From the NCBI GenBank assembly GCA_905250025.1, contig CAJNOJ010000182.1, positions 62,001 through 126,000 of the forward strand: a stretch of 64,000 bases of DNA, in the 5' to 3' direction. Below, in pieces: positions 1-64,000 of this stretch (position 1 is its first letter; each line of letters starts with the position of its first letter). The notes beneath the pieces are model-generated. The model saw nothing but the letters and a program-made list of their open reading frames with translations, made no database searches and had not been told where the DNA came from. The DNA comes from Adineta ricciae (Eukaryota; Rotifera; Eurotatoria; Adinetida; Adinetidae). Position numbers and translations under genes: made by a program.

Positions 1-2240
1 GTTGCAAAGTGATTTCCTTCAAAATCAATTCGCATGCCTTTTTAAAATCCATTCGACCGAAATCTACATAGATTCGACTACCAATGATTAAACCCAGCCA
101 TCCATCAGCACGATAACCTTGTCGAGCAATAATTGGTATCAGATTTCGTTTACATCGAAACGCGTATTCAGCTTCTGCTTGACAATAAACGCTACGTTTG
201 TATGAATCGGACATACACAAAATAACAAATTCAGAGTTTTCAACTGCATCTGCCATGGCTTGCATCGCTAGAATGAGTAGGAACAAAAGTAATGAGAAGA
301 AATCGTTCGAATGTAACTCACCTGGCCCGTAAATATTATCTCGGTCGACCCAAATTTTAAAACCTTGATCTGCTAAGAACTGATGAACTCGATAAACAAG
401 TTCCTTATCAGCATGACAATATGAAATCATAATATCATATTGATAATCAACTTTTTTTGGTTGATCTTCTTTTTTGTCATCAGATTCAGTTATCTTCTTT
501 TTAGTATTCGTTTTCTTTTCTCTTTCGGACTCTAAAATACAAGAAATGAATCTTATTTCGATTCTCATCGATTACCTTTGAAAAGATTCCAAAGAATCTT
601 CTCTGCTGCTTTTCTAATTCCATCGCTTTCATCCTTCTGCATATCTTCAATCGATTTGATTACTTCTTCATCACCACGTAACATTCTTGCTGCCTCTTCA
701 TCGAATGTGATTGAACCGAGCGACTCGAGTACTAATCTTTTCGAACGATCGTTCAACTGTTGACAATGGTTAACCAGTAAATGTAGAGCATTTTGTTTTA
801 AAATCTCACTTTTTATTTGATCGTGTTGAACGAGTGCTGAAGAGAAACAAATATAAACTAACAATCCTACCTTTAAACTTCACTTTACCTTGAATTGCTT
901 CCATAAGCAAGGCAATATTTCTATTAGTAGATTCCTCGTCATTATCCATTACGGAAATCGATTGAATTTTCTTTCGTAACGTATCAAGTATTTTCGTAAG
1001 TAAACGACCGGAAGCTTTCTCCGATGCCTTTATATCATCTTCTTCCAGTGTATAAGATAACATGACATAAGCATGTAAAACAATCGATTCATTGCTCACG
1101 AATGCTAATGAACGAAAGATGGAAGTTATTTTAAGTTGTTTTAGGTAAATTAGAAGGTCGGGTTCGTGAGCGAAGATTGTTAATGTCTGCAGAGCAGAAT
1201 GAATTAGTACTGTTTCGGGATTTGTGGACTTTTTGGAAATTTTTTCAATAAAAGTTAGTTCGGTAAGAATACGAATGATATGATCAATTAGCCATTTAAT
1301 TGGTTGACCGTTGGCATAAGGTGTATAGTATCCTCGGACATGTGTTACTGTTAATAGCAGATGATGAATTGCGTGGATCATCGATGACTTCCATTCTTTA
1401 ATCGATTGTATATGTTTATCTAATAATGATGCGTACCGTGGAATCATTGTCCCTAATAACTGATCGATGATATTCTTAGATTGTAAACCTGACAGAAATA
1501 CCGAAAGTTTAGAAACAAAGATAAAAATGTCAAGTTTTACCTCGATACGAAGTTAAAAATGATGGACACTGAATAAGGAAGAACTTCTGCTCTCTTGTCA
1601 TAGATTTGGCGTATGGTTTCAATTTTTTAAACACTCTTTCATAATTCGATGAAACTAAACAATTCATTGTTGCAATAAACAATCGGTAAAATTCATCTTT
1701 ATCTTCTGCGTTCGAAGGCAGTCGTTCATAATAAACACCAAACATATTCAACAGTCGTGCTAGTTGTTTAAACATTTGTTGATTCTGATGCTTTGAAAGT
1801 AGCTGATCAATGTTGCTCATACATGTCGCTACGGACTCCACAAAAGATGAATCGATTAGCCATGATGTTAACTTACTGACGTCAGGAATAATATTTACAA
1901 GATCTTTGAAAAGCAAGACACCATTTCGAACAAAATCGATCTCTTCTTCGCTTAATTGCATCAACGAATGCCAATCGTCGAGAATATCTCGAAGAAGGTC
2001 GCGACTTGAAATATAAAATTCATGTGACGGAATAGTAACTAAGACTTCTAGAGGAATTTCATTTAATTGTTTGATAATTCTTGTCGTTTTTCTCACATAA
2101 CGGCTCGTCCGTTTGTGTTGTTTATACGGCAATTTTCGCGCAGAGGAATCTAAGAAGTATTTGACATCATCTATGGTCCATTGTCTTTGACAGATTGACT
2201 TTGCTTGTGGAAAATAATCGTAATTATTTGAAGGCAGCAT
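1..2240 (-). CDS. ARM-repeat/TIR-domain protein, 3' end beyond window
   Basis: Five exons in phase: 1541-2240, 889-1488, 576-836, 322-531 and 1-267, with GT-AG introns of 52, 52, 44 and 54 nt. The start is the first ATG, preceded by AT-rich non-coding DNA. About 679 residues are visible. The first ~430 are helical and have no recognised family. Residues ~430-520 look like armadillo repeats (for example RKAAEKILWNLFKG). A Lys-rich linker leads to a TIR domain from about residue 549: YDIMISYCHADKELV, then WVDRDNIYG as the BB-loop region, then YCQAEAEYAF, which carries the Glu expected in NAD-cleaving TIRs. The ARM-TIR order resembles SARM1 without SAM domains. A cytosolic role in NAD+ cleavage or immune/stress signalling is inferred. 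The open frame reaches base 1, so the C-terminus is missing here. Confidence 0.85.
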
Positions 2241-5765: not shown

Positions 5766-6843
5766 CTATGTAGTAGTAGTATTAGGTTGGGGACGAAATA
5801 AAGTTCCAACAGGTATTATTCTATTGGGCAGCATTCTTCCTAGGAAAATATTCTTTAACTGTGGTGTCATCCATACCGTTCCTACACTCAAGATTGCCAT
5901 CGTTACTTCAACATCGAGCCACATAGTACGATGGAATAATGGTTGCTCAAAGTTAGTGATCAATAAAATGAAGAAGAGAATTAAAGTTGGAAGGCCAAGT
6001 GTGAGTAGTATACCGACACTGACAATTATACGCTGCACTGCTACCAAATCTCGATTTTGTCGCTGTTTCACTATATTTGTCTGACGCGCCGAATGATTTC
6101 GAATGAACAAAGTGATTCGCGTGTAAATCATTAGCAAACAAACTATTGGTATTCCATAAGCATTAGAAGCAGACCACACAGTAGCACGAAAATTGGTAAA
6201 TTCAAAGTAGCAGTAGTAATCGTTTGGTATATAAGTTATACCATGCCATATAACAACTGGAGACATGAAAAGAAAGCCTGCCGCTAACTGAATAGGAGTG
6301 ATGATCAGATAAAACCAATATAGCTGAACTCGCCGGTAATTATGGTAGACAATGCGAAACAGCCGATACAATGCCTAGAAGTAAAGGTATCTATAGAGTC
6401 CTCTCATGAATATACCTATATTTGGAAAAGTAAATATAGAATAGTTGAAAAGTTTCAGAATCTGATTGGTATTGGCGTCTTCGCCAACTACTCACTTGGA
6501 TAATGAAACTGCTATATGTAGCACAGCAAATTGATGCGATAGAATAGCCTTTGAGTATGCATAAAGATCTGTTAGTACTAAAATCGACTCCATACATATC
6601 CCCGATCAATGTTTGCGTGTTGTTTACAATGAGTATTGCCATGAACATCAGTATAAAAAAATAAATATTAGCTGAAAGCATTAAAGTAACTTTCTCTGTA
6701 CGTTTCATTCCACGATGATAATGGTAAGAGTGATATGCTATACCAATAAGTACTATGCAACAAACAATCAAAGCAATTGAACCATGAACAAGAGATATAA
6801 TACTGAGAATATAACCAATTAAACCACGACCATACTCAACCAT
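5766..6843 (-). CDS. Class A-like 7TM receptor, duplicate copy A
   Basis: Exons 6496-6843 and 5766-6374, intron 121 nt, 318 aa. I chose the ATG at 6843 (MVEYGRGLIGY) because TM1 follows at once; the frame stays open up to an ATG at 6981, which would add 46 residues. Seven hydrophobic segments are visible. A Cys before TM3 (NRSLC) and a Cys in the second extracellular loop (NDYYC) could form the usual disulfide. A DRY motif is absent; the TM3 end reads QALYRLFRIVY. This resembles orphan chemosensory-like GPCRs expanded in rotifers; the ligand is unknown. About 89% identical to the copy at 18118-19195. Confidence 0.8.
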
Positions 6844-7158
6844 TCTTGAAATAGGTTTTTTTCGCAATAGTCTAGAACAAAAAAATGAGCTCTTGATCCA
6901 AAAAGATTTGAATATAAGTGTAATATGCAGAGAAACTTTCCCTTTTATCACATAAGAAATACATAATAAATATATAATCATCTACTTTGCCAGGTACTGG
7001 AAAGTAATGTCATATTCTGCTTCGAATTACCTTCTGAAAGCCGCTAGAATAGATTACAATGAGCTTCTTTTTATTACATAAAATCATTTGACGCAGCAGG
7101 TGGTGTATCTTCAAGGATTAAACTGCATCCGCCACACGCCAAAAGTGACATGATTACT
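6844..7158. other. 5' flank of GPCR copy A
   Basis: Upstream DNA of the receptor, conserved in the second copy. An in-frame extension of the GPCR frame runs to 6981 and may be 5' UTR, intron or extra N-terminus. Confidence 0.5.
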
Positions 7159-7342
7159 CCCATCGGCGGGCCAGAGGGGGGGGGGGGGGGGTTAACCCGG
7201 TTTAATAATATGAAANNNNNNNNNNCCAAAAGTGAACGGTTTTCCCCCCGCGGGGGGCGGGGGGGGGGGGGGGGGGCGCATCCGTGATAATCACTGAAAA
7301 AATTTTTATTGTCCCCCCTGAAATTTTTTTGCCGGCCCGCCG
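7159..7342. mobile_element. G-rich inverted-repeat insertion with an assembly gap
   Basis: Absent from the duplicate copy, where the site reads CATGATTACTTCTGATCG. The insert is flanked by the 9-bp direct repeat ATGATTACT (7150-7158 and 7343-7351). It has terminal inverted repeats CATCGGCGGGCC (7161-7172) and GGCCCGCCGATG (7334-7345, overlapping the flank). Inside are long G-runs and 10 Ns at 7216-7225. A small non-autonomous DNA transposon is the best reading; the interior sequence is unreliable. Confidence 0.6.
7216..7225. other. Assembly gap (10 N)
   Basis: Ten Ns within a poly-G/poly-C stretch, most likely a sequencing or gap-filling failure inside the G-rich insertion. Confidence 0.95.
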
Positions 7343-7683
7343 ATGATTACTTCTGATCGATATTACTATCCAAGAAACGACTGCAGAATTAAATTAGAAA
7401 AGTTCTGTTCAACGTCGTTTGTTAATTACTCTGAGAGAGAGAATAAGTTTGATTACTATTAACTTCTCTTCTTAGCTAACTATAAGTCATGAAGTATATT
7501 TGATTATTGGCATGTATTTATTTAAATAATAATTAAAATATAAATTAGTAATAATCTTCGAGCAATAAAAAAATCTTTTTCGCAGTTTTTTTCTATTATG
7601 AAATCAATTATATATAATTCACCAAATTGCAATATTATTTCACATTGTAGCAATAAGAGAAATGATAATGAGTAATTAATATA

Positions 7684-7858
7684 CTATTGTAGCAATAAAG
7701 CTTTTCTTGCTTTCGATGGTCTACTTCTTTTCCTCTTTGTGCCTGCTTCCACAGTTGTCGCTCCTGGTGATGGTTTGCGACATTCCAGCCTGATTAACAT
7801 TCCTATGACATGCTTGCAAACATAATTCTTAAGAAGTGAAGGACAAACGCACATTATT
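7684..7858 (-). pseudogene. 3' exon of a SWIM zinc-finger protein, copy A, broken by a MITE
   Basis: The minus frame ending at the TAG at 7684 reads CVCPSLLKNYVCKHVIGM, then a basic tail with KRKRSRPSKARKALLLQ. C-x-C...C-x-H followed by a basic C-terminus is the SWIM zinc finger typical of MULE-transposase-derived proteins. The frame is cut just upstream of the first Cys by the MITE at 7859-8244; the same exon continues beyond it at about 8253-8310. No N-terminal exons were found. The copy at 19819-20058 lacks the MITE. Confidence 0.65.
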
Positions 7859-8244
7859 CATCAGTGTGAAGCTAGCACGAAGGAGCTAGCACGAACAAAC
7901 GATACGTTAGGTTAAAACGTTTTTACTAAATATGTCCCGTCCATGGAAACTACACCGTTCGACTCAGAATTTAATTCTGCATCGAATGATCGCACTTTTA
8001 TTCACCAGACAAACTTTGGAAAAATTTTTATCTATATCTTTGTTCGTCTCCTTTAGGTCTATTTAAAATCCAGAACGAATTTTTCCAAAGTTTGTCCGGT
8101 GAATAAAAGTAGCACCATTCGATGCAGAATTGAATTCTGAGACGAACGGTGTAGTTTCCACGGACGGGACATATTCAGTAAAAAAGTTTTTAGCTAACAC
8201 ATCGTTTGTTCGTGCTAGGTCCTTCGTGCTAGCTTCACACCGAT
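7859..8244. mobile_element. 386-bp foldback MITE
   Basis: The two halves are long imperfect inverted repeats of about 165-170 bases (GTGTGAAGCTAGCACGAAGG at the left, its complement at the right). The element is flanked by the 8-bp direct repeat ACATTATT (7851-7858 and 8245-8252). The duplicate locus has a single ACATTATT and no insert, so the insertion post-dates the duplication. No transposase frame. An 8-bp target duplication fits hAT-type mobilisation; the superfamily is inferred. Confidence 0.88.
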
Positions 8245-8373
8245 ACATTATTCTTCTCCATTCTTCGAGTGAGGGTGAAAAGTTACTTGTAAAGAGAGAA
8301 TTCGGCCGAATTGGGTGCTATTAAATTTATTGCTCTTTTTCTAAGAGAATACAGCTTATATACACAAAAAAGG

Positions 8374-10713
8374 ATGCTCTGTAAAAAAAAACCGGGTAAT
8401 AACGAACTATTAAGAGTTTCAGCCTGTGTCTGAAACCTTTACGGTTCCATTCAGGTATCAATAAACTGTGAAAAGGTTTTGTACGATTTAAAGAGCCATG
8501 ATGCATTCCAAAATGGTTCCATATATCTCAAAAGGTTCGATCTTACACCAATCATTCTTCTGTGGAACCCATGTGGGCCATGACTGGTTCCATGTGTCAT
8601 AAAAAGGTTTACTCTCACACCAACTTTTAAAATGATCAATCGATTTTTATCCATAAAAAAATAATTTCTAAGGTGCAAAAGTGTATTATCTAATATCATA
8701 GACTTCTAATAATTAACGTTTTAGAAAGATGATTCGAATACGAATTGTCGTAGCACTTTTCTGTGGCTCACTTACCAGCGATATCTGAGGTGATTTTTTT
8801 ATTGGATTATTGACTTATCCAATATTTATATGTTTAGGTGCCCCTATAACTATACTTTTGTTACGTGTGGCTGTACGTTATATCAAAGATAACTGATCTT
8901 ATCTCTTAATCTTAGCATTTGGGACAATCGTCAACTTGCCAAACAGCAAGTTTTACATCTATTTCCTCTTTGTATTGACTTTACCTATTTTGCTCTGCTT
9001 CAAGTAAATAAAAATCTGGTCTTATTTAGTTCATTAACTAATAAATAGTTACAATCAAGTAAGGCTCATCCTTTGTATTCGCTGACCCCCTTCTGAAAGA
9101 CTTTTCCTAATGTTGGACATATTCAGAGACTTCGAAAGAGAAAAATCGCACTTCGATTGCTACTAGTGCTCAACTGAATCATGGCACTATGTCACACACA
9201 CTAGAATGAATAGGATGCAAAAGTCTTTTTAGGCATCAGACCGATTAGCCATTTGTCAGTGGATAATTCTCCAGCACTAACTATGTTGACTGAAAAATTC
9301 ATCGCTCAACAGCTAGTTAGACGGTCACTCACGGCCAACCATTGACCTTTGTCATCTGTTTTTTTCTATTTTCACATCACGCGCATGAAAATTTTCATAA
9401 ATGCTTTGCTAAATCATCCATAGACGAATGATATACAGTAGACTTCTTGAAAAGTTTGAACATTCGCCTGTGTCTTCCAGCGATAAAACGATTCTTTTCT
9501 CTCCTGTCAACAAAATGATACCTTGCCGAATATTTTCATTGAGGAATATTCATTCGTCAAATCCCTTTCGAAGTTATCTGAAGCCTGGTAAGGTTATTCT
9601 AAGCGTACACTTTAGGATTAATATAGCATTTAAACGCCTAGTCGTTCGTCGACCTCCCTCCGGTCGGTCACTCACGGCTAGCCGTTGCCATGCTGTCTCT
9701 CTTATTCCTTTCGTCTTTGATCAACTTCCAAATTGAACGATTGGGTTTTCTTTTATTGTCGCTTCGACAGTCATGATCTTCTATTCATTCGATTACCCAA
9801 AGAAACTAGATAAGAAAGTCTTATTGTATGATTTGCTTCGAAGCGAACATCTTTCACAGCGCTGCATGTGTTCAGAATACTGTTTCTACAGTCCACGCGT
9901 CTGTAGTTACTAAGAACTAAGATGGAATTCCACCGACGGGTATATCGCTTTGTGAACCACTTCTACTAAAATCCCATGAAAAGACATAATGTATGTAGCC
10001 TAAAAAGCAAATGTGATACTAACGTAAGCTCATATCACTTTTTCGGATTTCTCAACTAGAAACATCATTATGTACAATTCATTAGATCTTTTCGTGTAAG
10101 TTCTTGAGCTACTATCTTTGTACACATGACGTCCGTGAATAGCGTTCAGCTCACCATCTTCTACAAAAGATTTTAGAACAGATAAAGAAAAATATCTCCT
10201 TTGTAAAGAGGAAGGAGCAAGCCCAGGCTCAGTGAATAAAACGAAATTCGCCCTCAAATTCGAATTTCCCGACGTCAGAAATCCTTCGGTCTACTCTGAC
10301 AATGGATGTTAATCAGTCGTGGCTAGTTAATGAAAAATTAATAATTAATTAAGCAACAGTAACCTCGGATTCGTGATCCTCGACCTTGATTATCCTACTG
10401 ACAATCATTTTCTAACAACTATCGATGAATTTCATTGATTTTAGATATGCTGATTTCTGATTGGATAGGACAGACAGCCAACTTTAAGCTTTTTAACACA
10501 GCATTTAAACACTGTATAACCCTTTCTTTCAGAAAAGGGAATAAGGATTATAATAACTTTTTGATGTGGAATTCAGATATGGACAAGTCAAGTCGAAAAT
10601 TTTACACATATACGTTGGTGTTTTATACATTTTAGTATGAAATTTAGACTTCAAGTTTGCCAAAAAAATTCAGAATTAAAGACGACAGACTGACTCATAG
10701 AGCCAATTAGCAT
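8374..10713. other. Gene-poor region, left part
   Basis: No supported gene. Short open frames (for example 9428-9736 plus and 10030-10257 minus) lack recognisable domains and splice context. Two related stretches near 9317-9345 and 9668-9690 both contain TCACTCACGGC, probably old repeat debris. Frames near 8835-9000 have hydrophobic stretches broken by stops, possibly gene remnants. Confidence 0.4.
8441..8640. repeat. Degenerate ~72-bp tandem repeat, about 3 units
   Basis: GGTTCC(AT) recurs at 8443, 8515 and 8586, each followed 15-20 bases later by AAAAGGTT and, in the last two units, by a C/T-rich stretch ending in ACACCAA. Spacing is 72 and 71 bases. Units are clearly diverged. Confidence 0.4.
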
Positions 10714-10819
10714 CAGAGATGGAAAGTCAGATATATTTACGACTTGAATCAAGTTAAATCAAAGTAAATCAGGTGACTTGTGACTTGACTTGGAAAAACC
10801 TCTGACTTGCCCATTTCTG
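10714..10819. mobile_element. 106-bp hAT-like MITE
   Basis: It starts CAGAGATGGAAAGTCAGA and ends in the complement of CAGAAATGGGCAAGTCAGA, giving imperfect terminal inverted repeats of about 18 bases. CAGaaATGGGC-type ends are typical of hAT elements. The interior is rich in GACTTG/AAGTC repeats. I could not find a clear 8-bp target duplication. Confidence 0.55.
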
Positions 10820-13122
10820 GATCGTGATCGTATTTCAACATAATTAAATTATCCTCTTTACAATCATCCACTCTTTTGCTATAGTATTACTCAATATTGA
10901 TTCAGACTTCATTCAAAACTATTTTCTCGTCCTAGCAATCAACTTATCTTACGCTTGTCAGAGATGTTCTAGCCTTCGTAGCTAGACTTATTTAAGTGTT
11001 ACTGAAACGTCCAAAAATATTTTTATTTTCTAAACCTTACTGAAAAATATAGCTGAAGGTAAGAGAAAAAACCAGATATGTATCTGTATGTATGGCGAAC
11101 AACATATCTATTGCCAGAAACGCCAAGCAAAGAGACTCTAAGCAAATTTAGTTTGGATTTCAGAGAGAAGTCGCGTCCTTGATTTGTTTTATAGGTATCA
11201 CAAATAGAAATGACATCAGTATTATCAAGGTAACTTTTTAATGAGATGAAAATTAAGAAAAGAGTGGATAAATGAAAATCTCGCTATGTCAAAATAAAGT
11301 TCATGAAATTTGTTTTCTTAATCATCTCTAGCTCACATGACATTTCCTGAAACGATCATAAAACAGTGGAACACCAAATATTTGTCAAAAACTCATTTCA
11401 CACCAGATTGTATTCACATATTTCATCGATATTATCCTCTATACAAGATCTAATATCGAATCATCCATAAACGATATCATCGTTTATTGCTATATTTCAA
11501 AATACGACATCCCAAACAACAATCGAATGGAAGTTATTAAGAAACAAATCTGTCGAAAACCTATTCAGTAATAGCGCTGCCACGAAATTTCTTTTGAAAG
11601 TTTTACATTCTTCGCTTCTGTTTTACGCTTCAACAGCGATTCTATATGTATGTTGATGATGTTTCATTGTGAAAAATTGAAAATGTTTTATAATGTTAGA
11701 GTTTGCCATTTGTGTCTGATTGTAATCTGAAAAACCGTGCTTCGTGTTTGTTTTCGAAAGTATATGTTAGTTTCACAGAATAGAAGCGTTTTGTCATTTT
11801 CCTCTGCTCTTACTGTTAGTAGAAGAACTTGAACATTGTAGTTCCATTCGTTTCATAATTTATTGCAGAAAGCACAGAGTAAAATCCTATGGAACGATAT
11901 AACATATAGCACGCATTACATAAAATACTATCCTCCACAGCCAGATAATAAATCGGATGCTATGTTTGTTCTTCGTTGTAAATGTTCGCATATGTATGTC
12001 ATGGTTATTGTATTGAAAGAAACTAATCGGCAGTTATCTGTTAACAGAACTACAGGTGTTTTAAAGTAAGATATTACAGCGTTCTTGTAGATTCGATGAT
12101 TGTCTTAAAAGTTATCTGTTTGGGGATATCGAAAAGCGGCTTAACTTGTCCAATAACCTAAACCCCTTGTTTCCCAAGAGAATCGATAACATTTGTTTTT
12201 TCGAAGGTTTTCCACGTTTTCTTATTTACTAAAATACCATGGGGGAATTAATTCATCACAATGAATTCACAACAAATTGTTAGAGAATCTCGATGAAGGA
12301 GCTATCATTCTACTTATGTGAAAGAGAGCGAATGTTCTAACTCAGCCTTCAACACAAGAAACATATGCATTATAGGAGTGCCACTTTAACTTAACTTTAA
12401 GTGTTCCAGTTCAAGTTAACGTCATTCTTGCGATAAGCCGTAGTTCACTTTTATAGTTTGTGGCTTTAAAAAGAAATAAAAGATGATGTGACTGGTTTTT
12501 CTGGTCGAGAACCGATTATTTTTTCTTTTCTGATTTATCTATCATCGAACAAGATTTGAAAAATGAAACGAGCACACTGAAAGATGGTGCATGAAGCTTT
12601 CAGGAAGCTACGTAGTGAAACTTATTACAATCATGTGTTTCATTTACTAAAAGACGTCAAATAGCGCAAAATAATCAGTGAAAACTGACCTGGTGGTATT
12701 TAGTGTTCTCGAAAACAAAACTTACATAATCAAAATAAATCTCTAATGTAACCTGTAGAGTTTTTTATCTTTCACTATACTTTTTAGCTAAAAAAATTAA
12801 TTTAGAGGTGTCAATTTCTTTAGAAGAAAATCGAATCGGCTTGCAAAGGAGTCAAAGGCATAAAAGATTTCGTACTTTGAATTCTTAAAATTACCATTGT
12901 AAATGTCAAAACAGAATTCAATGAGCATGCGTATTCTAATGCCATCTTTCTGCGCACACCAACAATTCGTAACTGCTGAAATAGTTACACGTCATTTGTT
13001 TTCGTCAAAAACATATATAACTACATCATCACCATGAGTTACTACTCATAACGAATAAAGTCAAACATTTTTCATCCCTTTCAGTCTCTACAGTACGCTG
13101 TGCTGCACGATTGACATACAAC
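10820..13122. other. Gene-poor region, right part
   Basis: AT-rich, no recognised gene. A 68-codon open frame at 11863-12069 follows a possible acceptor but matches no family I know. The last part should hold the promoter of the F-box/LRR gene. Confidence 0.4.
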
Positions 13123-16100
13123 ATGCACACATTTTCCACATTACCCGTCGAAATTGTTTATCGAATTATGGATCATCAAAATGAGCTGACACTATTTTGC
13201 TCAATGCAAAATATTTCCCGGCGGCTCAATCAGATCCTGAGCACCTATGAGCCATATCGAGTAAGTTTACTAAGCACCTTAACACTCTTGTTGGTTGTTC
13301 TACATGTAAGCCTAATGGTATTTGAAGTTGTAAGTTTCCTCATAGAATGAGGTAAAGTAATCTCATAGTCCCCATCTAATTTGATCGAATGAGACAATCG
13401 CAGTGTGCAGTCATCTGAAATCAAGCATTCCTCCACTCTCTCGCCTTTCTCCTATGTATGTTACACTATTCGATACAAAAGTGTATCAACTATCACTTTT
13501 GTTGAAATTCCCCAAATCAAGCAATCTAATCTCCACAATTTCAGGGTCTATGCCCATATTCATTCTCACCCTCACCCACATAAAATCCAACTCCCACAAA
13601 TCATAAAAGAAGGGCTTCTATTTCACTGGACGACGCCCTCAAAAGAAATATCTCTCTACAATCAATAGCTATTCATAGTAATATTCTACTCGATCACCTT
13701 ACCGTAATCTCCTCTCAATATTGCCAACACAGTACTTCTTCTCTGAACTCAATCTTTCCTGCGCAACAACTTCCATCATCATTCACCCCTAAAACTCACA
13801 TCCACATCTGAGTGCTGCGTACAGATCGTCCCCCAACATCACTATTCCATATCACACATATACAATCAGAAGTATCACCTAACGTTCTCTTTACTACTTG
13901 CCCTATTTAAAATACATTACTTTATTGTAGACACTCAGCACACTAAACCTCCAAGACCGCAGAATTCGTGCTACAGGCACACAACACATTGCGAATGCGT
14001 TGCAAATGAACACGGTAATGTTGATCTGATTTCACAGAAGGTGAAGCACTCAGTTTCTCTCATACCTACAGACACTCACCACGCTACACCTCGATTCGAA
14101 CATAATCGGTGATGAAGGGGCACAACACATTGCGGACGCATTGCGAACGAACACGGTAATATTGATCTCATCTCAGGGAAGGTGAAGTACTCAGTCACTC
14201 TCACACCTACAGACACTCACCACGCTATATCTCGCCGGCAACAGAATCGGTGATGAAGGGGCACAACACATTGCGGATGCGCTGCGAACGAACACAGTAA
14301 TATCGATCTGATTTCACGCAAGGTGAAGTAAACAGCCTCTCTCACACCTATAGACACTCACCACGCTATATCTCACCGGCAACACAATCAGTGCTGAAGG
14401 AGCGCAACACATGGCGGATGCACTGCGAACGAACACTGTAATATTGATCTCATCTCAGGGAAGGTGAAGTAAACAGCCTCTCTCACACCTACAGACACTC
14501 ACCACGCTAGACCTCCAATTTAACGGAATCGGTGCTGAAGGAGCACAACACATTGCGGATGCATTGCGAACGAACACAGTAATATCGATCTGATTTCACG
14601 TAAGGTGAAGTAAACAGCCTCTCTCACACCTACAGACACTCACCACGCTAAAACTCGATTCGAACATAATCGGTGATGAAGGGGCGCAACACATTGCGGA
14701 TGCGTTGCGAACGAACACGGTGATATTGATCTCATTTCACGGAAGGTGAAGTACTCAGTCACTCTCACACCTTCAGACACTCACCACGGTACATCTCCGC
14801 GGTAACAGAATCGGTGGTGAAGGGGCACAACACATTGCGGATGCGCTGCGAACGAACACAGTAATATCGATCTGATTTCACGCAAGGTGAAGTAAACAGC
14901 CTCTCTCACACCTACAGACACTCACCACACTAAACCTCGACTCGAACACAATCAGTGCTGAAGGAGCAAAACACATTGTGGATGCATTGCGAACGAACAC
15001 GGTAATATTGATCTCATCTCACGGAGGGTGAAGTACTCAGCCTCTCTCACACCTATAGACACTCACCACGCTAGACCTCCAATTTAACGGAATCGGTGAT
15101 GAAGAAGGACAACACATTGCGGATGCATTGCGAACGAACACAGTAATATCGATCTGATTTCACGCAAGGTGAAGTAAACAGCCTCTCTCACACCTATAGA
15201 CACTCACCACGCTATATCTCACCGGCAACACAATCAGTGCTGAAGGAGCAAAACACATTGTGGATGCGCTGCGAACGAACACAGTAATATTGATCTCATC
15301 TCAGGGAAGGTGAAGTACTCAGCCTCTCTCACACCCACAGACACTCACCACGCTATATCTCGCCGGCAACAGAATCGGTGATGAAGGGGCACAACACATT
15401 GCGGATGCATTGCGAATGAACACAGTAATATTGATCTCATCTCAGGGAAGGTGAAGTAAACAGCCTCTCTCACACCTACAGACACTCAATACGCTAGATC
15501 TCGGCTGGAACGAAATCGGTGATGAAGCGGCACACCAGATTGCGGATGCATTGCGAACGAACACAGTAATATCGATCTGATTTCACGTAAGGTGAAGTAA
15601 ACAGCCTGTCTCACACCTACAGACACTCACCACGCTATATGTCGCCGGGAACACAATCAGTGCTGAAGGAGCACAACGGATTGCGGATGCATTGCGAACG
15701 AACACAGTAATATTGATCTCATCTCAGGGAAGGTGAAGTAAACAGCCTCTCTCACACCTACAGACACTCACCACGCTAAACCTCAAGTGGAACGGAATGG
15801 GTGCTGAAGGAACACAACACGTTGCGGATGCGTTGCGAGCGAACACGGTAATATTGATCTCATTTCACGGAAGGTGAAGTACTCTGTCTCTCCCACACCT
15901 ACAGACACTCACCACGCTAGATCTTGGCAATAACCAAACCGGTGCTAGAGGAGCACAACACATTGCGGATGCGTTGCGAGCGAACACAGTAATATTGATC
16001 TCATTTCACGGAAGGTGAAGTACTCTGTCTCTCCCACACCTACAGACACTCACCACACTATATCTCGGCGGTAACAAAATCGGTGATGTAGGAGCACAAC

Positions 16101-16345
16101 GCATTGCGGATGCATTAGAAACGAACACGGTAATATTGATCTCATTTCACGGAAGGTGAAGTACTCAGTCCCTCTCACACATACAGACACTCACCACACT
16201 AAACCTTTGCGACAACGGAATCGGTACTGAAGGAGCACACCGCATTGAGGATACGGTGCGTAGGAATGCCGTAAGACCGATGCTTTGTTGGAAGAAATTT
16301 CGAATATCTGATTTATCTAATTCTTAGAGCATCAATGTGGTGTAG
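13123..16345 (+). CDS. F-box/leucine-rich-repeat protein built from 17 tandem LRR exons
   Basis: Exon 1 (13123-13260) encodes an F-box-like segment: FSTLPVEIVYRIMDH...SRRLNQILSTYEPYR. After a 670-nt intron come 17 LRR exons of 84 nt, from 13931-14014 to 16187-16270, each flanked by GT...AG introns of 57 nt. A terminal exon at 16328-16345 encodes SINVV and the stop. All joins are phase 0, giving about 527 aa. Each exon gives one 28-residue ribonuclease-inhibitor-type LRR, consensus TLTTLxLxxNxIGDEGAQHI plus ADALRTNT. Family knowledge suggests a protein-binding horseshoe, possibly a ubiquitin-ligase substrate adaptor or NLR-like sensor. The direct join of exon 1 to the first LRR is inferred; an additional exon in the long intron is possible. 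Confidence 0.75.
13931..16270 (+). repeat. Tandem array of 17 LRR exon-intron units, period 141 bp
   Basis: Unit starts fall every 141 bases (13931, 14072, 14213, 14354 ... 16187), with no net length change over 16 intervals. Each unit is an 84-nt exon plus a 57-nt intron. Introns fall into two main types, GTAATATTGATCTCATCTCA and GTAATATCGATCTGATTTCA, which mostly alternate over units 2-10, suggesting a two-unit higher-order repeat. Exons differ mainly at the exposed LRR positions. Confidence 0.93.
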
Positions 16346-18063
16346 ATCTCGCACCGGATGGAATGGGAGGACACGTGATAGTTGATCTGGTGACTCTTTG
16401 CGTAGAAAGGGTGCTTTTTGATTGAGAACTTAGTCGATATCATTTGGTGTGTGATTTTGGTGACGGTGAGAAGTAGTGAAGGAATAGAAAATTAATTTTG
16501 TTGTGAGAAGTGTATGTGACCTGAATGAGAATGCTTTTTGTTGTGGGAAAATATATGTGGAATAGCGGTAGTGAATGTTTTATTTGCGGAGGTGTAACAG
16601 AGCAGTGTTTGACGGAAGAGCTGTGATGGTACAATGCGTTTAGGGAAGGTTCTCTTGGTTCGGAAGTTTTTCCTGAAAGTGTGTGAGTGACAAGACAACA
16701 TTACTGCAGACTGCTTGACTCTATTGGAGATTGAATAGAATTGAATCGACAGGAGTACAGCACGTATGCATTTTACATATCAGATCTCGTAAAAGCGATG
16801 TGATCAGACCCTGGTACATTGAATGGGAACGACGTTTCATTAATATCTAGCTGTCTCATGCTAGATTCCAAAGCCTAAATGTATTGAGAGCTTGATGATG
16901 AAGTGTTATGTTTGTTTGTAATTTTTTTTGGAGAGAGTAGTATGTATCCGTTATCTATGAATTCTGTGGTGCATTGGAAAGAAATAATGTGTTACAGAGT
17001 GACTAAAATGGCACAGTGAAGAGAGACTGGTCAAAAAGTAGCGCACCGAATCGCGCTGTTAGGTTAATGATTTCCCACGATCAGTGTAGTCTGAGAAGAA
17101 GTGATTTTGTCGATTATGATAAGCTCCATTCACTCTCAGTGTTGATCCATAATAAAATATCAGGGAAGTATTTGCTGCAACATTTTATCGCGGAAAAAGC
17201 ACTGGAATATGCTCTCGAGCTTGTTTGTATTTTATTCTGATAACAGGGTTTTTCGTTTATGGTTTGCTTACATCGAAAATCTCTACACTGCTTGAAACGA
17301 TAGCAAATTTGAGGCCGTAAGAAAAGCGGAGGATAACCAGTTTTACAAATTTTCTCAGTCAGATTCGGACTGGTACATTTGATATCTAATGATAGTCAGC
17401 TATTGTACCCTTGCTCTAAGATTTATCTTTCGAATAGTGACAAAACTGAAACCAGTCGGTTGTGCATCATTCAACATCATAGCCTGTGCGCTGAGATATT
17501 ATATATTCATAGCGTTCCTTAACATTACACTGCGTAAGAAAACGTACATTTCGCTTGATTCGGGTACCTGTCCTTGAGTTCTCTGCACGTATCGGTGATT
17601 GAAACCTCGCACGAAAAGATGATCTTTGAAGAGAAGCGGATTTTGGCTATCTGAAGTCACTCCATGCTGATTTTGTGTCTGTAGTGTTGCTAGGTTTTGA
17701 GATGTATCTGAAATGATATGCATATATACCGCCTTTTTGCAAGGGATTAACCGTACTTATATCTTTCTTTTTTAGAAAAAGGAGGACATGTTTAAAAGTG
17801 CAAATCCATACTAGTCATTTATAGCGAACTTCTGCTTCCTGTGAACAGTGATTGTCAGTCTGGAATATAGAACAATTAAAAGCAACACAAGTAGTCCTTT
17901 GACTTTTTTCAAGACTGCGAGGCGAATGAAGATCAGTCTTTGGGGCCCTTTTCAAAGGTTATATTTCTGTCTGTTTTTGCATAAAACGCACATAAGACTA
18001 TTTTATTTTCACTCAGTGGCTCAGTCGAGGGCATAGCGAGCCTGCCTCGACGAACGTTACTAG
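16346..18063. other. Intergenic DNA
   Basis: Region between the LRR gene and the right duplication copy. Several 60-75 codon frames on both strands (for example 17016-17240 plus, 17499-17723 minus) have no recognised domain. No RNA gene or repeat recognised. Confidence 0.4.
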
Positions 18064-18117
18064 TTTATTAGGATAAATGAAGCTGACAGAGACATCATGA
18101 AGGAATTCACAGTGTAT

Positions 18118-19195
18118 CTATGCAATAGTAGTATTAGGTTGGGGATGAAATAAAGTTCCAACAGGTATTACTTTATTGAGCAGCATTCTTCTTAGGAAAA
18201 TATTCTTTAACTGTGGTGTCATCCATACCATTCCTACACTCAAGATTACCATCGACACTTCAAGATCGAGCCACATAGTACGATTGAGTAATGGATGCTC
18301 AAAGTTAGTGATCAATAAAATGAAGAGGAATATTACAGTTGGAAGGCCAAGTGTGAGTAGTATACCGACACTGACAATTATACGCTGCACTGCTACCAAA
18401 TCTCGATTTTGTCGCTGTTTCACTATACTTGTTTGATGCGCCGAATGATTTCGAATGAACAGAGTGATTCGCGTGTAAATCATTAGCAAGCAAACTATTG
18501 GTATTCCATAAGCATTAAAAGAAGACCACATAGTAACGCGAAAATTGGTAAATTGAATCATGCAGTAGTAATCGTTTGGTACATAAGTTATACCATGCCA
18601 TATAACAACTGGGGACATGAAAAGAAAGCCTGCCGCTAACTGAATAGGAGTGATGATCAGATAAAACCAATATAGTTGAACTCGCTGGTAATTATGGTAC
18701 ACAATGCGAAACAGACGATACAATGCCTAGAAGTAAAAGTATCTATAGCATTCTCTCATGAATATACCTATATTTGGAAAAGTAAATATAAAATAGTTGA
18801 TAGTTTTCAGAATCTGATGGGTATTGGCGTCTTCGCTAGCTACTCACTTGGATAACGAAACTGTTATACGTAGCACAGCAAATTGATATGATAGAATAGC
18901 CTTTGAATATGCATAAAGATCTGTTAGTACTAAAATCGACTCCATACATATCCCCGATCAATGTTTGCGTGTTGTTTACAATGAGTATTGCCATGAAGAT
19001 CAGTATAAAAAAATAGATATTAGCTGAAAGTACCAAAGTAACTTTTTCTGTACGTTTCATTCCACGATGATAATGGTAAGAGTGATATGCTATACCAATA
19101 AGTACTATGCAACAAATAATCAAAGTAATTGAACCATGAACAAGAGATATAATACTGAGAATATAACCAATTAAACCACGACCATACTCAACCAT
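18118..19195 (-). CDS. Class A-like 7TM receptor, duplicate copy B
   Basis: Same structure as the copy at 5766-6843: exons 18848-19195 and 18118-18726, intron 121 nt, 318 aa. About 36 residues differ. Many lie in and near the second extracellular loop (YYCMIQF against YYCYFEF), in TM5 (WSSFNAYG against WSASNAYG), in TM6 and at the C-terminus. Both frames are intact and both keep the splice sites, so both are probably functional. TM3 again ends in LYRLFRIVY, with no DRY. Ligand unknown; the spread of differences near the likely binding pocket suggests divergence in ligand preference, which is inference. Confidence 0.8.
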
Positions 19196-19818
19196 TCTTG
19201 AAATAGGTTTTTTTCGCAATAGTCTAGAACAAAAAAATGAGCTCTTGATCCAAAAAGATTTGAATGTCAGTGTAATATGGAGAGAAGCTTTCCCTTTTAT
19301 CACATAAGAAATACATAATAAATATATAATCATCTACTTTGCCAGGTACTGGAAAGTAATGTCATATTCTGCTTCGAGTTACCTTCTGAAAGCAGCTAGA
19401 CTAGATTACAATGAGCTTCTTTTTATTACATAAAATCATTTGACGCAGCAGGCGGTGTATCTTCAAGGATAAAAGTGCATCCGCTACACGCCAAAAGTGA
19501 CATGATTACTTCTGATCGATATTACTATCCAAGAAACGACTGCAGAATTAAATTAGAAAAGTTCTGTTCAACGTCGTTTGTTAATTGCTCTGCGAGAGAG
19601 AATAAGTTTGATTACTATTAACTTCTCTTCTTAGCTAACTGTAATTCATGAAGTATATGTGATTATTGGCATGTATTTATTTAAAAAATAATTAAAATAC
19701 AAATTAGTAATAATCTTCGAGCAATAAAAAGTCTTTTTTCGCAGTCTTCTATTATGAAATCAATTACATATAATTCAACAAATTGCAATAAGAGAAATGA
19801 TAATGAGTAGTTAATGTA
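19196..19818. other. 5' flank of GPCR copy B
   Basis: Counterpart of 6844-7683 without the G-rich insertion. AT-rich; no gene. Confidence 0.6.
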
Positions 19819-21698: not shown

Positions 21699-23126
21699 TT
21701 ATGCAAGTAGATAGAAGCTTTTTTTCGATCGAATCGCTTTTTCCAACGATAATTTGCCACCAGATGACAGATTACAATGTTGAATATCCAAGAACTTTAA
21801 TGCTGTATTGTGTTCCAGCATATTGATTATTGAGTCAACGGAAGCGTCGGTTATAGTCGGGTCGCCTGATAAACGTAAAAACTTCAGCGATCTATTATAA
21901 AATGCAAGGGAATTCACTAATGAATAAACACCTTCATCAGTAATTTCATTTTCATTCAACCATAATGAACACAAAATCTCGTTTGTTTTTAACATTTCCG
22001 ACAGGTACTGTATCGATTTACAGGTTATCTTATTAGACGAGAGATCCAGTTTGCTTGTATGAACATGATTAGTTGCCAAAATTTGTGACAGATATTGAAT
22101 ACCTAAATCACCAATAGAATTCTTTGCTAAGACCAACTTTGTCAATGTTGTATTATCATATAGAACTGATCCGAGAATGAATACACCTTTGCATGTTATC
22201 TGATTATGATTCAATGTCAACGCTGTGCAATTTTTATGATTAATTGCCTGTCGAACGATAATGTCCATATCTGAATCGTTTAGTGATTGATTTTCCAATT
22301 TGATTTCGCTACGAGATTTGCAATGTTCGATGTAGTGCTCTAATTTTGAATTGGTATAATCACTTGTCCATCGAATTGCCAGCATGAACATGTCGATAGT
22401 TGATAGTCGTTGAAAGAAACTAATCAACGGTTGAATTTCTCGTAAATGTATAATGCAAAGATCGTTGTCGTGTTGGTAGTTTCCAATAACTTTGAATTGT
22501 CTTGCAGGCAAAAATAAAACTTCTTCTTGGTTTGAAGAGAGGGTATGTTCGTGAATAGCTTTCGCGGATTGACATTCAATCTTAAATAGTGTTCGCTGAC
22601 CTGTTTTATTCAGAAATCGATCGGCATATTCTGCTGACATTGTGCATGGTGAGAAGCCCCACCATATGCATGTTGATCCGGTGTGATATTTTGAGCTAAG
22701 ATCCATGTTTACAGCACGATAGACCATCGAAATGGATTTCTCAGGCAATTTGAAGTAAGATATAAGAAGTAGTTTGAAATAGAGTAACCATGGCTTGAGT
22801 AATTCACGATTTTCTGAACGAAGTATTTGATTGAATGAGTAATAAAATGAATTTTCACCGGGCGTCCATTCCATGGAATAGAGCAAAATTGATGCTGATT
22901 CATTGAGTGTTAGATGTCCGTGCATATGTTGACTATGTTGTTTGGCTATCCAAACCATGCGATCAAGCTCAGGTACGAATAATTTAATTGGCTGAATTGC
23001 TTCGTCTAACGGAACAATCGGTAAATGTTCGTAATTTTGAATTAATGGTAGAATTCGCAGTGGTTCCAGCCAAACATCAGAAAATCGACCGGCTGTTTGT
23101 ATATTATTAAGAAAATTGGATGCCAT
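21699..23126 (-). CDS. Mono-ADP-ribosyltransferase-like domain fused to LRRs
   Basis: Single exon, 475 aa, starting MASNFLNNIQTAGRFSD. Residues ~30-245 match the arginine-ADP-ribosyltransferase (ART) fold: the conserved Arg in MVYRAVNMDLS, the WWGFSPCTMS segment in place of the usual S-T-S strand, and NQEEVLFLPARQFKVIG at the catalytic E-x-E position. Here the first Glu is Gln, giving Q-x-E; the second, catalytic Glu is kept. Residues ~290-470 contain about six ribonuclease-inhibitor-type LRRs (LTLNHNQITCKGV, LVLAKNSIGDLGI, LDLSSNKITCKSI). No signal peptide, so probably intracellular. The ART-LRR fusion is familiar in bdelloids; activity and target are inferred. Confidence 0.85.
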   Translation of the reverse strand: MASNFLNNIQTAGRFSDVWLEPLRILPLIQNYEHLPIVPLDEAIQPIKLFVPELDRMVWIAKQHSQHMHGHLTLNESASILLYSMEWTPGENSFYYSFNQILRSENRELLKPWLLYFKLLLISYFKLPEKSISMVYRAVNMDLSSKYHTGSTCIWWGFSPCTMSAEYADRFLNKTGQRTLFKIECQSAKAIHEHTLSSNQEEVLFLPARQFKVIGNYQHDNDLCIIHLREIQPLISFFQRLSTIDMFMLAIRWTSDYTNSKLEHYIEHCKSRSEIKLENQSLNDSDMDIIVRQAINHKNCTALTLNHNQITCKGVFILGSVLYDNTTLTKLVLAKNSIGDLGIQYLSQILATNHVHTSKLDLSSNKITCKSIQYLSEMLKTNEILCSLWLNENEITDEGVYSLVNSLAFYNRSLKFLRLSGDPTITDASVDSIINMLEHNTALKFLDIQHCNLSSGGKLSLEKAIRSKKSFYLLA

Positions 23127-24373
23127 GCGAGTGATTGAGCGAGAGAGACTTGTGAGTTTTCGAGAAAGGAATGTTAGATTTGATTAGTGAGTTGGCAAAA
23201 GATCATTTAACTGGTGAATTACGTCGGAAAATTTTTCTTTCTGAACGTCGCGTTTCTGCTTTGAAACTTAATAATAGGATAAAGAACAAATATCAGAGAT
23301 AATTGAAATAGCTCAACGAAGGTCGTCATAGTTTTATAGACATTATACCGAGCCTTCGCCTCCCGTTATTTGACGAACAATTTTTCGAAAGGTATACGCT
23401 ACTAGTAGTTTTCTTCGCTTAAATTCTTTTTATCAAAAAGGATATTTTATAGTCTCTGAACTGTTTACGCCTTTCAAAAAGTATGAATTAATTTGTTACT
23501 GCACATTAAAATCTAAAGCGACGTAGACAAGGCGTAAAAATCATGAAAAAAAACATGTAGACTATTATAGATTAGTTCTCTTTCGGATTTTGTATAAACT
23601 TATATTGTTTTAATTCTGAACACTTGTATACGATCGCGACGATACGTTTTATTGTATTCAAGAACGGATTATACATCGACAAGTGTGTAAGATATCGTAT
23701 GCATATGTATTCAGCATTGTTTTATTGTAGTAGTACAGCCCTGAACATTCACGGCTGATAAAAAATAATCAAAGAATAGCATGATACTTGCAGATTTCTT
23801 GAGCTCCATTTGAAGAAGGGTTCATTGGTCGTATGAAGGTTTGTTTTGGTACTATTGAACTGACTCGTGATACATCGATGTCTGACATAATTAGCTGTTT
23901 CGTGGACATTCAGCTCTTGATGTAATATAATCGATAGGCATAGGCCAATGAATTGATTACAGTCGCTACTTTTACGAACAGAGATAAAAATGAATAAAAT
24001 ACGATGTGATGACGCGAATTAGATCGTGTCTGATGTTACAAGCATTCTGTTATATACATATACTTTGCAAACAGAATCTATGGTGGATTATGTTGTAATA
24101 AAAAAGTTTTCAAGCCATGCCCGACCAACGTCAACGATTGAGCTAATATGGAAAAGAGAGAATATGAAACGAAGGTTATACTACAACTAGAACATTGTCC
24201 AGCGAGAAGATTAAACTTGAGCTCAGGAACTCTAGTGCTGATAAAATAGCTCGAAATCGATCAAAGCTGAAGTTCAAATACTCTTCAGTTTTGTTTATTC
24301 ACGCTTCAAAGACTGATGAAAATTACAAAGTAAGGTATTTACTGTAATTCCAGTGATTTACCGAATTTTAAGT
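23127..24373. other. Intergenic DNA
   Basis: Upstream region of the ART-LRR gene. AT-rich; no ORF or repeat recognised. Confidence 0.5.
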
Positions 24374-54153: not shown

Positions 54154-55285
54154 CTAGCGATTGTTCATAGGGAATGGTTGAGAGTTGATCGACGATTTTG
54201 TTGCTCGACCATCCAGAAGTACATAAATGTCTGCTTCAGTCCGAGATTGTGAGACCCGATCGTGTAATGTCGGAAAATGCATCGGTACCAAAGGCCCATA
54301 GAAAATCTCCTCCGTTCGATAAAGATTGTACATAAATCTTGCTTTTAAATCTCTTCTTACATACGATAAGAGATTCTTCTGAGATTCTTGGTTCCCTAGC
54401 CAAGGAGTATATTCGAAAAATAAGTGTCGAATACGTCTTTGAGCAAAGAGATTTTTGGCCGAACGAAGAACATTCAATTCCGTTCCAGCTGCATCTATTT
54501 TGAGTACATAGATAGATTGTGATGGCCATGAAATGTCGTCTAATCGAATAGTTTCTACCGAAACGCTTTCGGTGTCACCTCCAGCACCTTCCGGAGGTGC
54601 AAAATCAATCGTTGTATCGCTTGCTAAATCCATGACAGCTCTCTGAGTTACATTCACGGGTGGCGATGTAAATGAATTCTGGCGGATAGACGAGCGAATG
54701 AGTTTAACTAAATCCGGTTGAGCTTCAAACATATAAACAGTACAACCGCACGCCGCTGCATAAAGACCAAATGTACCTTAAAAAGAAAGAATATCGTCGT
54801 TCGCGTTCGAAATATCACTTTCGTATTCTTTTACCGAGACCAGCACCAACATCGATGACAACGGTTGATGGATCTTGTTGACAAGTTTCTTGCAAATGCA
54901 ATTCATCGAGTATTTTTCCATATGCCCGATCACTATCTATCGGTGGCTTGTCGCCCGTCCTGGTTACAAGTTTGAATGCTGGCTCTCGATTGTCCATGTC
55001 AAATACTGTTTCGTTAGGCTTGTTATCTTCAACCATACCCCCTCCCTCTTGTGTTTTCTCTCCATCAATATCGGTTCCGACGACCGTTTCTGGTTCATCT
55101 CCATTTAGCAGCATTCGTGATAATTGCAAGTCAGAAATGGCAGCTAGATGACGCAAGACAAGCACGGAAGTGACACACGCTAGTACTAAAATAAACCAGT
55201 TCTGCTTCGCAGCACGAACCATTGATACCATATAGTGTAAGCATAATGTACCATATCCAGAATTGGTTTTGTTAATATATGACAT
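54154..55285 (-). CDS. FkbM-family methyltransferase, array member 1
   Basis: Exons 54835-55285 and 54154-54776, intron 58 nt, 357 aa. Type II topology: TM at about residues 30-50 (WFILVLACVTSVLVL), then an acidic stem. SAM-binding motif I is VVIDVGAGLGTFGLYAAACG, split by the intron after the second LG. TVYMFEAQPDLVKLIRSSI follows, then VSVETIRLDDISWPSQSIYV, LKIDAAGTELNVLRSAK and HLFFEYTPWL, all typical of Methyltransf_21 (FkbM). KIDAAGTE replaces the more usual KIDVEGxE. FkbM enzymes O-methylate sugars and other small molecules; a Golgi glycan substrate is inferred from the topology. Confidence 0.87.
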
Positions 55286-56192
55286 AGTAATCTACAACGA
55301 GATAGATGCAGAATGAACAACAGTTGAATTCGATTGTGATTGTCACGATTGGATACTCATTTACATATTTCATTCGAGTAGTCTGCATGTTTTTCAGTTT
55401 CAATAATTAACGCTGTTGATAAAAGAAGAGATTTCAGAAATCTGATTCAGGAATGTACCTTTATAGCTAATAGACGAACAACAGTAAAATCATTCTCCAC
55501 TTATCAAAAGACGTCAATACCTTCAATGTACTTTGATGATGCATATATATACATATATGTCTACACTCTGCAATTCATGACATTTGGATGTAAGCAAACA
55601 TAGCTGAAAATATAGAGAAAAATCGCGTGGTATTTTTTTTTGCGCGTAGAACACACCTAAATAATTACAGTTGGATATTTTACACGATGTTTCTTTATGA
55701 AGTATTTTATATCTGTTGATTAGGGATGCGCATGTGTGTATGTATTTGTTCGTATTGATTAATTCGTTCTGGTCGAATGAATTTTCCGTTCTTTCCTCTC
55801 CTTTGCATTCGTCTTTCTTTTGTATTTTTTCTCAAGGATAAAAAAAGTGTCTATCGAGTGTATGTAAAATAGATAAACATGTTTTAATACGTAATGGGAG
55901 CATTATCTATTCATCGTTGAGGATGAAAAAAGCTCGCGCAGAATAGAATAGTTAATTCTAGAAAACAGATGCAATTTTAATATAAATACAAAGCAAAATA
56001 TAAACATAAGTCGAGTTCGTTTTTCGTCGTAGAACAAGTTATAAATTGTCGGTGTTCACCGTTATCAGATAATGTGTACTTCCCCTGCGTTATGTCAAAT
56101 GTGACATAGCCAACTACATTATTCATCGTCCTTGGTCAATGAATGTAACACATATTCGATATAATAGCTACAATCTCGGTTCAGTCGATTTC
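55286..56192. other. FkbM array spacer 1
   Basis: AT-rich, no ORF. TATAAAGG on the minus strand near 55459-55466 could be a distal promoter element for array member 1. Confidence 0.4.
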
Positions 56193-63624: not shown

Positions 63625-64000
63625 CTGCAATAGAAAATAATGAAGTAATTACTTGGCGTTAACCATGTGTTTGTTAGGATGAAACTATTTATCAATCATT
63701 TGAAACATGACACAAAATTTTGAAGTATTGAAGATGTGTCATCGTGTATAATTGCATGTAAAACAAAAATTATCATGTGTGTCGTTTACACAGAGAAAAG
63801 AGCTCGAGTTCCACGTGAATAGTTTGTCATGCTTCAGTGAAGCTTTTTCTTTCCTCTTCGTTCGGATCGTAGAAGAACAACGTATAGTAGCTGTTCTTTA
63901 TCAAGAGATTTATTCAAGTTATCTTCATTCGTTTTATTTTTATTCAAAATATCTCTTACGTCAGAGAAAATATTATATAAATGCGTTCAATCTACAGTCG
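63625..64000. other. 5' flank of array member 5
   Basis: Upstream DNA to the window edge. TATTATATAAAT near 63969-63980 on the plus strand may be a promoter for something beyond the edge. No ORF. Confidence 0.4.

Follow-up and report, generated by a model that had tools for sequence, protein, structure and literature searches.

The stretch analysed here (the window) comprises 64,000 nucleotides of the rotifer Adineta ricciae (contig CAJNOJ010000182.1, positions 62,001 to 126,000; handle C182), with a GC content of about 36%. On its forward strand, the window carries a predicted gene composed of an F-box-like exon, 17 leucine-rich repeats (LRRs) of the ribonuclease inhibitor (RI) type and a short tail. 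The features of this gene are the following:

13123..13260, + strand: exon 1, F-box-like domain of 46 amino acids, from the ATG to the conserved donor GTAAGTTT (Pfam; 21-copy comparison)
13261..13930, + strand: inferred intron 1 of 670 nt in phase 0 (donor conserved, with an AG ahead of the first LRR exon)
13931..16270, + strand: seventeen 84-nt LRR exons and sixteen 57-nt introns with a 141-bp period (spacing read; Tandem Repeats Finder; LRR_6)
14072..16186, + strand: internal units 2-16, with 2/6, 3/7, 5/9 and 4/10 as mutual nearest partners within the array (unit comparison)
16187..16327, + strand: last exon, with LRR 17, an 18-residue C-terminal tail and the stop (sequence read)

The 17 exon starts fall at 13931 + 141 x i, all 16 spacings being exactly 141, and Tandem Repeats Finder reports the same array with a period of 141, 16.1 copies, 84% matches, 0% indels and a score of 2932. 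These values confirm the strict 141-bp array of 17 consecutive 84-nt phase-0 LRR exons described in a first-pass annotation of this sequence. Every LRR exon of the array spans 84 nt in phase 0 and encodes, without a stop, the 28 residues of one LRR; the first eight repeats match LRR_6 with an E-value of 5.7e-47. All 16 introns are 57 nt long, conform to the GT-AG rule and introduce a stop in the exon frame if retained, which rules out a coding role for them in that frame. The median intron length in A. ricciae has been given as 55 bp (PMC5916493, excerpt). Exon 17 reads on through its tail to a stop codon at 16325-16327. The 57-nt intron length of the first-pass annotation stands, the introns number 16, and the exon at 13123-13260 and the 670-nt intron upstream of the array had been missed. 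Seven sources checked for RNA families at gathering threshold returned none, and a phage collection gave no match. TGTGGG, considered as a telomere repeat, occurs at few places, and its reversed form, being identical as a cyclic word, provides no discriminating control.

A search of the genome (130 Mb in 1033 contigs) revealed at least 40 such arrays, that of the window included (40 of 82 candidates scored), and the F-box exon lies 0.4-1.1 kb upstream of the matched array in 40/40 of them. At least 70 places are 83% or more identical to the F-box exon, all of them stop-free, and more distant ones exist besides (150 of 237 candidates scored). We read 21 arrays base by base, namely that of the window and the 20 most similar to it among the 39 others scored, and the resulting counts consequently describe close relatives. 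First and last units were excluded from the diversity, core and nearest-unit counts, which retain 283 of 325 units. The best-scored matches to 5.6 kb and 9.3 kb of flank included no allelic copy of the window locus, so that unit counts compare paralogs only.

An ATG-led conserved stretch is present upstream of the array in all 15 copies whose alignment reaches it (16 aligned); in the window, this exon 1 reads MHTFSTLPVEIVYRIMDHQNELTLFCSMQNISRRLNQILSTYEPYR, then GTAAGTTT. The Pfam F-box-like model scores 13.9 bits for a family composite one residue off the window copy and 18 to 23.2 bits for three further copies of the exon. The ATG, the frame and the GTAAGT donor are kept in 21/21 copies. Nonsynonymous diversity (pN) among these copies is 0.054 and synonymous diversity (pS) 0.257, with a pN/pS of 0.21, indicating that the F-box exon evolves under purifying selection. 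The distance from this exon to the first LRR exon ranges from 421 to 1116 nt among the 21 copies, a length compatible with an intron. Spliced in phase 0, the F-box and LRR exons yield a predicted protein of 540 amino acids (46 for the F-box-like domain, then 17 LRRs and the 18-residue tail) that matches 87 solved-structure sequences at E <= 0.001. The best of these is a GALA F-box/LRR protein (E 4e-53, residues 67-282, within the LRR part), and further matches are to LRRC34, ribonuclease inhibitor and NOD-like receptors (NLRs). Furthermore, the consensus over the 283 internal units, TLTTLDLSGNRIGAEGAQHIADALRTNT, fits the RI-like LRR class, defined by a 28-29 residue unit LxxLxLxx(N/C)xLxxxgoxxLxxoLxxzxxx (PMC4598782, excerpt).

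Variation within the LRR exons is concentrated at few positions. The four most variable residues of the window array are those at LRR positions 6, 8, 9 and 11, and the same four codons have the highest pN over all 21 arrays. In the window, pN reaches 0.539 at these predicted exposed codons, against an intron nucleotide diversity (pi) of 0.106 and a pN of 0.086 and pS of 0.162 in the other 24 codons. The mean within-array values for the 21 arrays are similar, with an exposed pN of 0.462 versus an intron pi of 0.117 (roughly a fourfold difference) and a pN of 0.088 and pS of 0.169 in the other 24 codons. Exposed pN exceeds both intron pi and other-codon pS in 21/21 arrays, and the excess at positions 6, 8, 9 and 11 thus holds in 20/20 arrays other than the window's. 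The first-pass annotation had proposed this comparison of exposed positions with the rest, having described the exon differences as lying mostly at exposed residues and the introns as almost identical. The exposed codons are indeed the outlier; the introns, with a pi of 0.106 against a framework pN of 0.086, are not better conserved than the exon framework. The chance that all four positions fall within the six x positions of LxxLxLxxNx (3, 4, 6, 8, 9 and 11) is about 1 in 1365 (15/20475). Positions 3 and 4, on the same strand, are conserved, and position 14 is also variable (A/D). At the level of single bases, codons 8 and 9 vary at all three positions across the 21 arrays and codon 11 at the first two, its third base hardly varying; codon 10 (AAC) is nearly invariant, silent base included.

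The remainder of the gene shows strong coding constraint. There are no stops in the 325 LRR exons of the 21 arrays, versus about 82 expected under neutral drift; random mutation of the consensus to an equal divergence places a stop in 25% of exons. The other 24 codons have a lower pN than pS in 20/21 arrays. Among the 304 internal introns, 302 start with GT and the remaining two with AT, and all 304 end with AG once two off-length introns (51 and 58 nt) are taken at their own length. This constraint suggests that the genes matter to their host. Intron indels number 2 in 304, versus about 22 predicted, as a rough estimate, from the indel-to-substitution ratio of the flanks, suggesting that the 57-nt intron length is held too, through splicing limits or through the exchange process itself.

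The nearest unit lies in the same array for 197 of the 283 internal units, versus 12.9 expected by chance, a pattern that unequal exchange or conversion inside arrays would give and that upholds the earlier proposal that within-array exchange homogenises the array. The mutual nearest partners of the window array (2/6, 3/7, 5/9 and 4/10) appear to be the trace of a block duplication, and for 4 of the 15 internal units the closest match lies in one of two other arrays, L009 or L016. These two are paralogs of each other, with flanks 95% (downstream) and 96% (upstream) identical, that carry 17 and 12 units, respectively; no collinear order of internal units is left between them, and their first units match at 96% and their last units at 92%. 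A second pair of paralogs (L020 and L024), with flanks 95% and 91% identical, carries 18 and 13 units. Copy-number change, also anticipated by the first-pass annotation, is therefore seen between close paralogs, and unit number is not fixed, ranging from 11 to 19 across the 21 arrays in a comparison that covers paralogs of one assembly.

Within the units, the variable core appears to behave partly on its own. In units 4 and 8 of array L021, the 123 nt outside the core contain a single difference and the 18 nt of the core contain 9. Outside codons 6-11, 33 within-array pairs differ at no more than 3 sites; within these codons, 13 of the pairs are identical, another 13 carry 1-4 changes and the remaining 7 carry 6-9. 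The same 12-nt core is found in both members of 163 unit pairs, versus 23 expected if the four codons were independent (maximum 44 in 300 shuffles); 87 of these pairs lie within arrays and 76 between arrays, with one core accounting for 34 of the 76. The between-array pairs are also closer than average outside the core (median 0.122 versus 0.163), and common descent consequently explains part of the excess. Taken together, these data suggest that a core is retained or transferred as a whole, with some independence from its framework. Block-wise replacement of cores would need either very short conversion tracts or mutation focused on those codons; short conversion tracts and selection suffice for the pattern, and a focused mutational process may lie behind the core changes.

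This pattern can be extended into a broader proposal, which we regard as rather doubtful: a germline repertoire for ubiquitin ligases, made up of at least 40 and perhaps 70 F-box/LRR genes, in which the exon arrays would serve as swappable cassettes. Their framework would be homogenised and the 12-18 nt target-facing core replaced as a block, via very short conversion tracts or codon-focused mutation, and intron-containing copies would be spread by hairpin-led repeats. Against block replacement, the 7 of 33 pairs with 6-9 core changes stem from three arrays (L021, L022 and L024) and are not independent.

We interpret the array as the target-binding half of an intact F-box/LRR adaptor gene, belonging to a large dispersed germline family, whose binding face has been diversified by selection, probably against changing targets and most plausibly against pathogen or parasite proteins; we assign this interpretation a probability of roughly 0.7. 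It builds on the gene architecture, the coding constraint, the within-array homogenisation, the variable unit number and the amino-acid excess at concave-face positions, all of which are shown by the sequence comparisons. In the proposed mechanism, the F-box would dock on Skp1 of an SCF ubiquitin ligase and the LRR horseshoe would bind a protein target through its variable residues. Unequal exchange and short conversion tracts would renew the array, and selection would keep the binding residues varied. The driver would be recognition of changing targets, with pathogen or parasite proteins as the most plausible ones; the identity of these targets, an immune role included, is what we infer from the whole.

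Several observations weigh against this interpretation. The F-box match lies under the Pfam curated cut-off (24.3 bits) in 4/4 sequences scanned. The exposed set (6, 8, 9 and 11) was fixed after the variability tables had been seen, the 20 other arrays informing the choice through the pooled table only, so that the figure of 1 in 20475 for it is not a fair probability. The pS of the exposed codons is likewise raised, at 0.354, which leaves a simple ratio of pN to pS of only about 1.3 at these codons; the argument for selection consequently rests on the introns and the other codons as reference. The introns used for this purpose may themselves be constrained, given their 2 length changes versus about 22. 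Furthermore, 42 independent recent within-array duplicate pairs show a modest exposed excess (29/504 versus 80/2394 in introns; 1.7-fold, p = 0.014), although choosing recent pairs by total difference works against finding one. Finally, in the nematode parallel drawn below, the F-box orthologs of Caenorhabditis briggsae were not induced by their virus (PMC5392922, excerpt).

The surroundings of the gene are shared with other family members and include a dispersed element:

11822..13122, + strand: 5' flank common to dispersed copies, mostly 80-91% identical, partial in some (copy alignment)
16328..17758, + strand: 3' flank common to dispersed copies, about 71-93% identical (copy alignment)
9056..10544, - strand: hairpin-ended dispersed element of 1.49 kb, ending ...GCGTTACTTG or similar (copy comparison)

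The 1.49-kb element is present in dozens of copies that are about 87-92% identical (40 scored of 989 candidates, for a 9.3-kb query containing the element), and no target-site duplication is visible by eye at its ends in three copies. Further F-box/LRR family members are likewise framed by a related terminal sequence (74% over 180 bp). At 13 of 40 scored repeat places, a sequence with a terminal hairpin (TTATTCCCTTTTCTGAAAGAAAGGGTTATA) has an F-box exon 2.9-3.6 kb downstream, and at 4 more the distance is a different one, of up to 8 kb. In five copies inspected by eye, the DNA on the far side of this sequence looks unrelated. In 7 of the 11 stretches examined downstream of a gene, a related hairpin-led copy with the same orientation is present. 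The window copy ends short of other copies, having upstream only the inverted 1.49-kb element, and the same arrangement is found in a copy on contig C21, whose likeness to the window extends further upstream, from 10431. We rejected a clean transposon bounded by the ends of the window copy, as other copies reach past both ends, and position C1:244432 as a shared right end, as it is merely where the copy on contig C1 stops. Downstream of the shared 3' flank, about 170 bp (17900-18070) recur at no fewer than 36 other places in the genome.

These repeats suggest that the genes may be passengers of mobile hairpin-led direct repeats, as with the pseudo-long terminal repeats (pLTRs) of Penelope elements, copy number reflecting mobility more than function. 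This explanation is compatible with an adaptor family diversified by selection, and we consider it possible on balance, if on the unlikely side. The upstream and downstream placements of the repeat speak for it, and so does a precedent in Adineta vaga, where two direct pLTRs, accompanied by a target-site duplication, enclose an intron-containing nonribosomal peptide synthetase gene, and an LRR gene whose 3' end carries a pLTR represents a possible older event (PMC3846280, excerpt). The repeat is, however, not specific to the F-box/LRR family, since the 15 kb downstream contain no F-box exon at 23 of the 40 scored repeat places. The F-box/LRR copies, whose right ends are not resolved, showed no target-site duplication. 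A by-eye comparison of 150 scored reverse-transcriptase places, out of 216 candidates, with the 40 scored repeat places put none of the former within 6 kb of the latter, and a reverse-transcriptase source of the terminal repeat was rejected on this count. The terminal repeat also has no significant match in three GIY-YIG loci (about 1.5 kb or less per side), and the strong coding constraint on F-box and LRR exons likewise argues against copy number as a mere product of mobility.

The same exposed-codon excess and F-box constraint would be obtained if the adaptors handled changing proteins of the cell itself, such as transposon products or germ-line factors, a reading with the same mechanism and other targets. 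The transposon-like repeats that frame some family members agree with it, yet nothing specific points to an internal target and diversifying nematode families have been explained by host-pathogen conflict (PMC5392922, excerpt), and we regard internal targets as an unlikely, though sensible, alternative. The first-pass annotation had compared the locus to a repertoire of variable lymphocyte receptors (VLRs) generated from one gene. An array assembled or spliced into many variants of a VLR- or NLR-like receptor, be it at the surface or a NACHT-type sensor, would agree with the resemblance of RI-type LRRs to those of NLRs (class definition in PMC4598782, excerpt) and with the phase-0 exons, each one LRR, that would permit in-frame exon skipping. 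The N-terminal exon is, however, F-box-like, with neither a NACHT domain nor a signal peptide seen by eye. No open reading frame (ORF) of at least 150 amino acids is found from 6982 to 18117 on either strand, a NACHT domain split over small exons not having been scanned for. Since the N-terminus is F-box-like and the diversity sits in many germline genes (at least 40, with 28-residue LRRs of the RI type), a one-gene repertoire of VLR kind is not supported, and a receptor of either sort is very improbable. A decaying or satellite-like repeat without function would account for the high identity and strict period, but not for stop-free exons, conserved splice sites and a constrained F-box exon in 21 arrays, and is hardly credible.

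Other genes of the window complete its description. A 7-transmembrane receptor-like gene is duplicated on either side of the LRR gene (5766-6981 and 18118-19333, - strand), its copies being 95% identical over 1.4 kb and scoring 24.8 bits for 7tm_1, below the cut-off of 30.5. A second, differently built LRR gene combines an ADP-ribosyltransferase (ART) domain (29.5 bits) and LRRs in one ORF (21699-23183, - strand). A TIR-domain protein (TIR_2, 71.8 bits) is encoded at 2-571 (- strand), in a frame that runs beyond the window end, and a row of similar genes occupies 54154-63648 (- strand); the one scanned is an FkbM-type methyltransferase and the rest look alike by eye.

Bdelloid rotifers are not known to possess adaptive immunity of the vertebrate type. 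If the proposed interpretation is correct, bdelloids, a group considered to have gone without sex for a long time (PMC5916493, excerpt), maintain many degradation adaptors whose recognition face is renewed rapidly. The strict register places introns beside selected codons as an internal reference, so that unequal exchange, conversion tract length and selection would be measurable in one gene. The family also bears on how intron-containing genes multiply in such genomes. A full-text literature search, with most subscription papers outside its coverage, found no description of a bdelloid F-box/leucine-rich-repeat family, and none of the rotifer F-box gene-family papers, judged by title, is on this subject; for A. 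vaga, PMC3846280 (excerpt) notes an expansion of LRRs.

Among known systems, Penelope-mediated dispersal in A. vaga resembles the present case in that intron-containing family members lie beside repeats with a 5' palindrome, which Penelope pLTRs also carry at their 5' end (PMC3846280, excerpt). It differs in that neither a target-site duplication nor a linked Penelope ORF was found at the F-box/LRR loci, and we treat the likeness as a lead. GALA and GALA-like proteins share the order of F-box followed by LRRs, GALA being the best solved-structure match, and some GALA-like proteins in plants, animals and protists bear F-boxes (PMC2244805, excerpt). The repeats of GALA, however, have 24 residues and are classed with the cysteine-containing LRRs, whereas the rotifer repeats are 28-residue RI-type units, one per exon. 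Fish NLR families share variable LRR number and gene conversion, but positive selection in these families falls in B30.2, and the LRRs of zebrafish NLRs are described as not particularly variable in sequence (PMC4852459, excerpt). In the rotifer family, in contrast, the LRRs carry the variety, and no NACHT domain is seen at the window locus, one split over small exons not having been scanned for.

Lamprey VLRs, which are anchored or secreted, are assembled somatically and present an LRR solenoid with a variable concave face, which is also their point of likeness to the rotifer array. In the one assembly covered, the germline array of the rotifer is complete in itself. The repeats of hagfish VLRB belong to the 24-residue Typical class (PMC4598782, excerpt), whereas the rotifer units have 28 residues and follow an F-box-like exon.

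The closest parallel appears to be the F-box expansions of Caenorhabditis, likewise a large lineage-specific family with a constrained F-box half and a diversifying target-binding half (PMC8665587 and PMC5392922, excerpts). Purifying selection acts on the F-box half in Caenorhabditis elegans and C. briggsae, and the ratio of nonsynonymous to synonymous substitution rates peaks in the C-terminal substrate-targeting half in most paralog pairs (PMC8665587, excerpt). In C. elegans, virus and microsporidia induce F-box genes (PMC5392922, excerpt). The rotifer genes differ in that their target-binding half is an exon-per-repeat array of RI-type LRRs. What is new about this locus would thus be the build of the recognition half in a diversifying F-box family, namely an LRR array with one repeat per exon in strict register.

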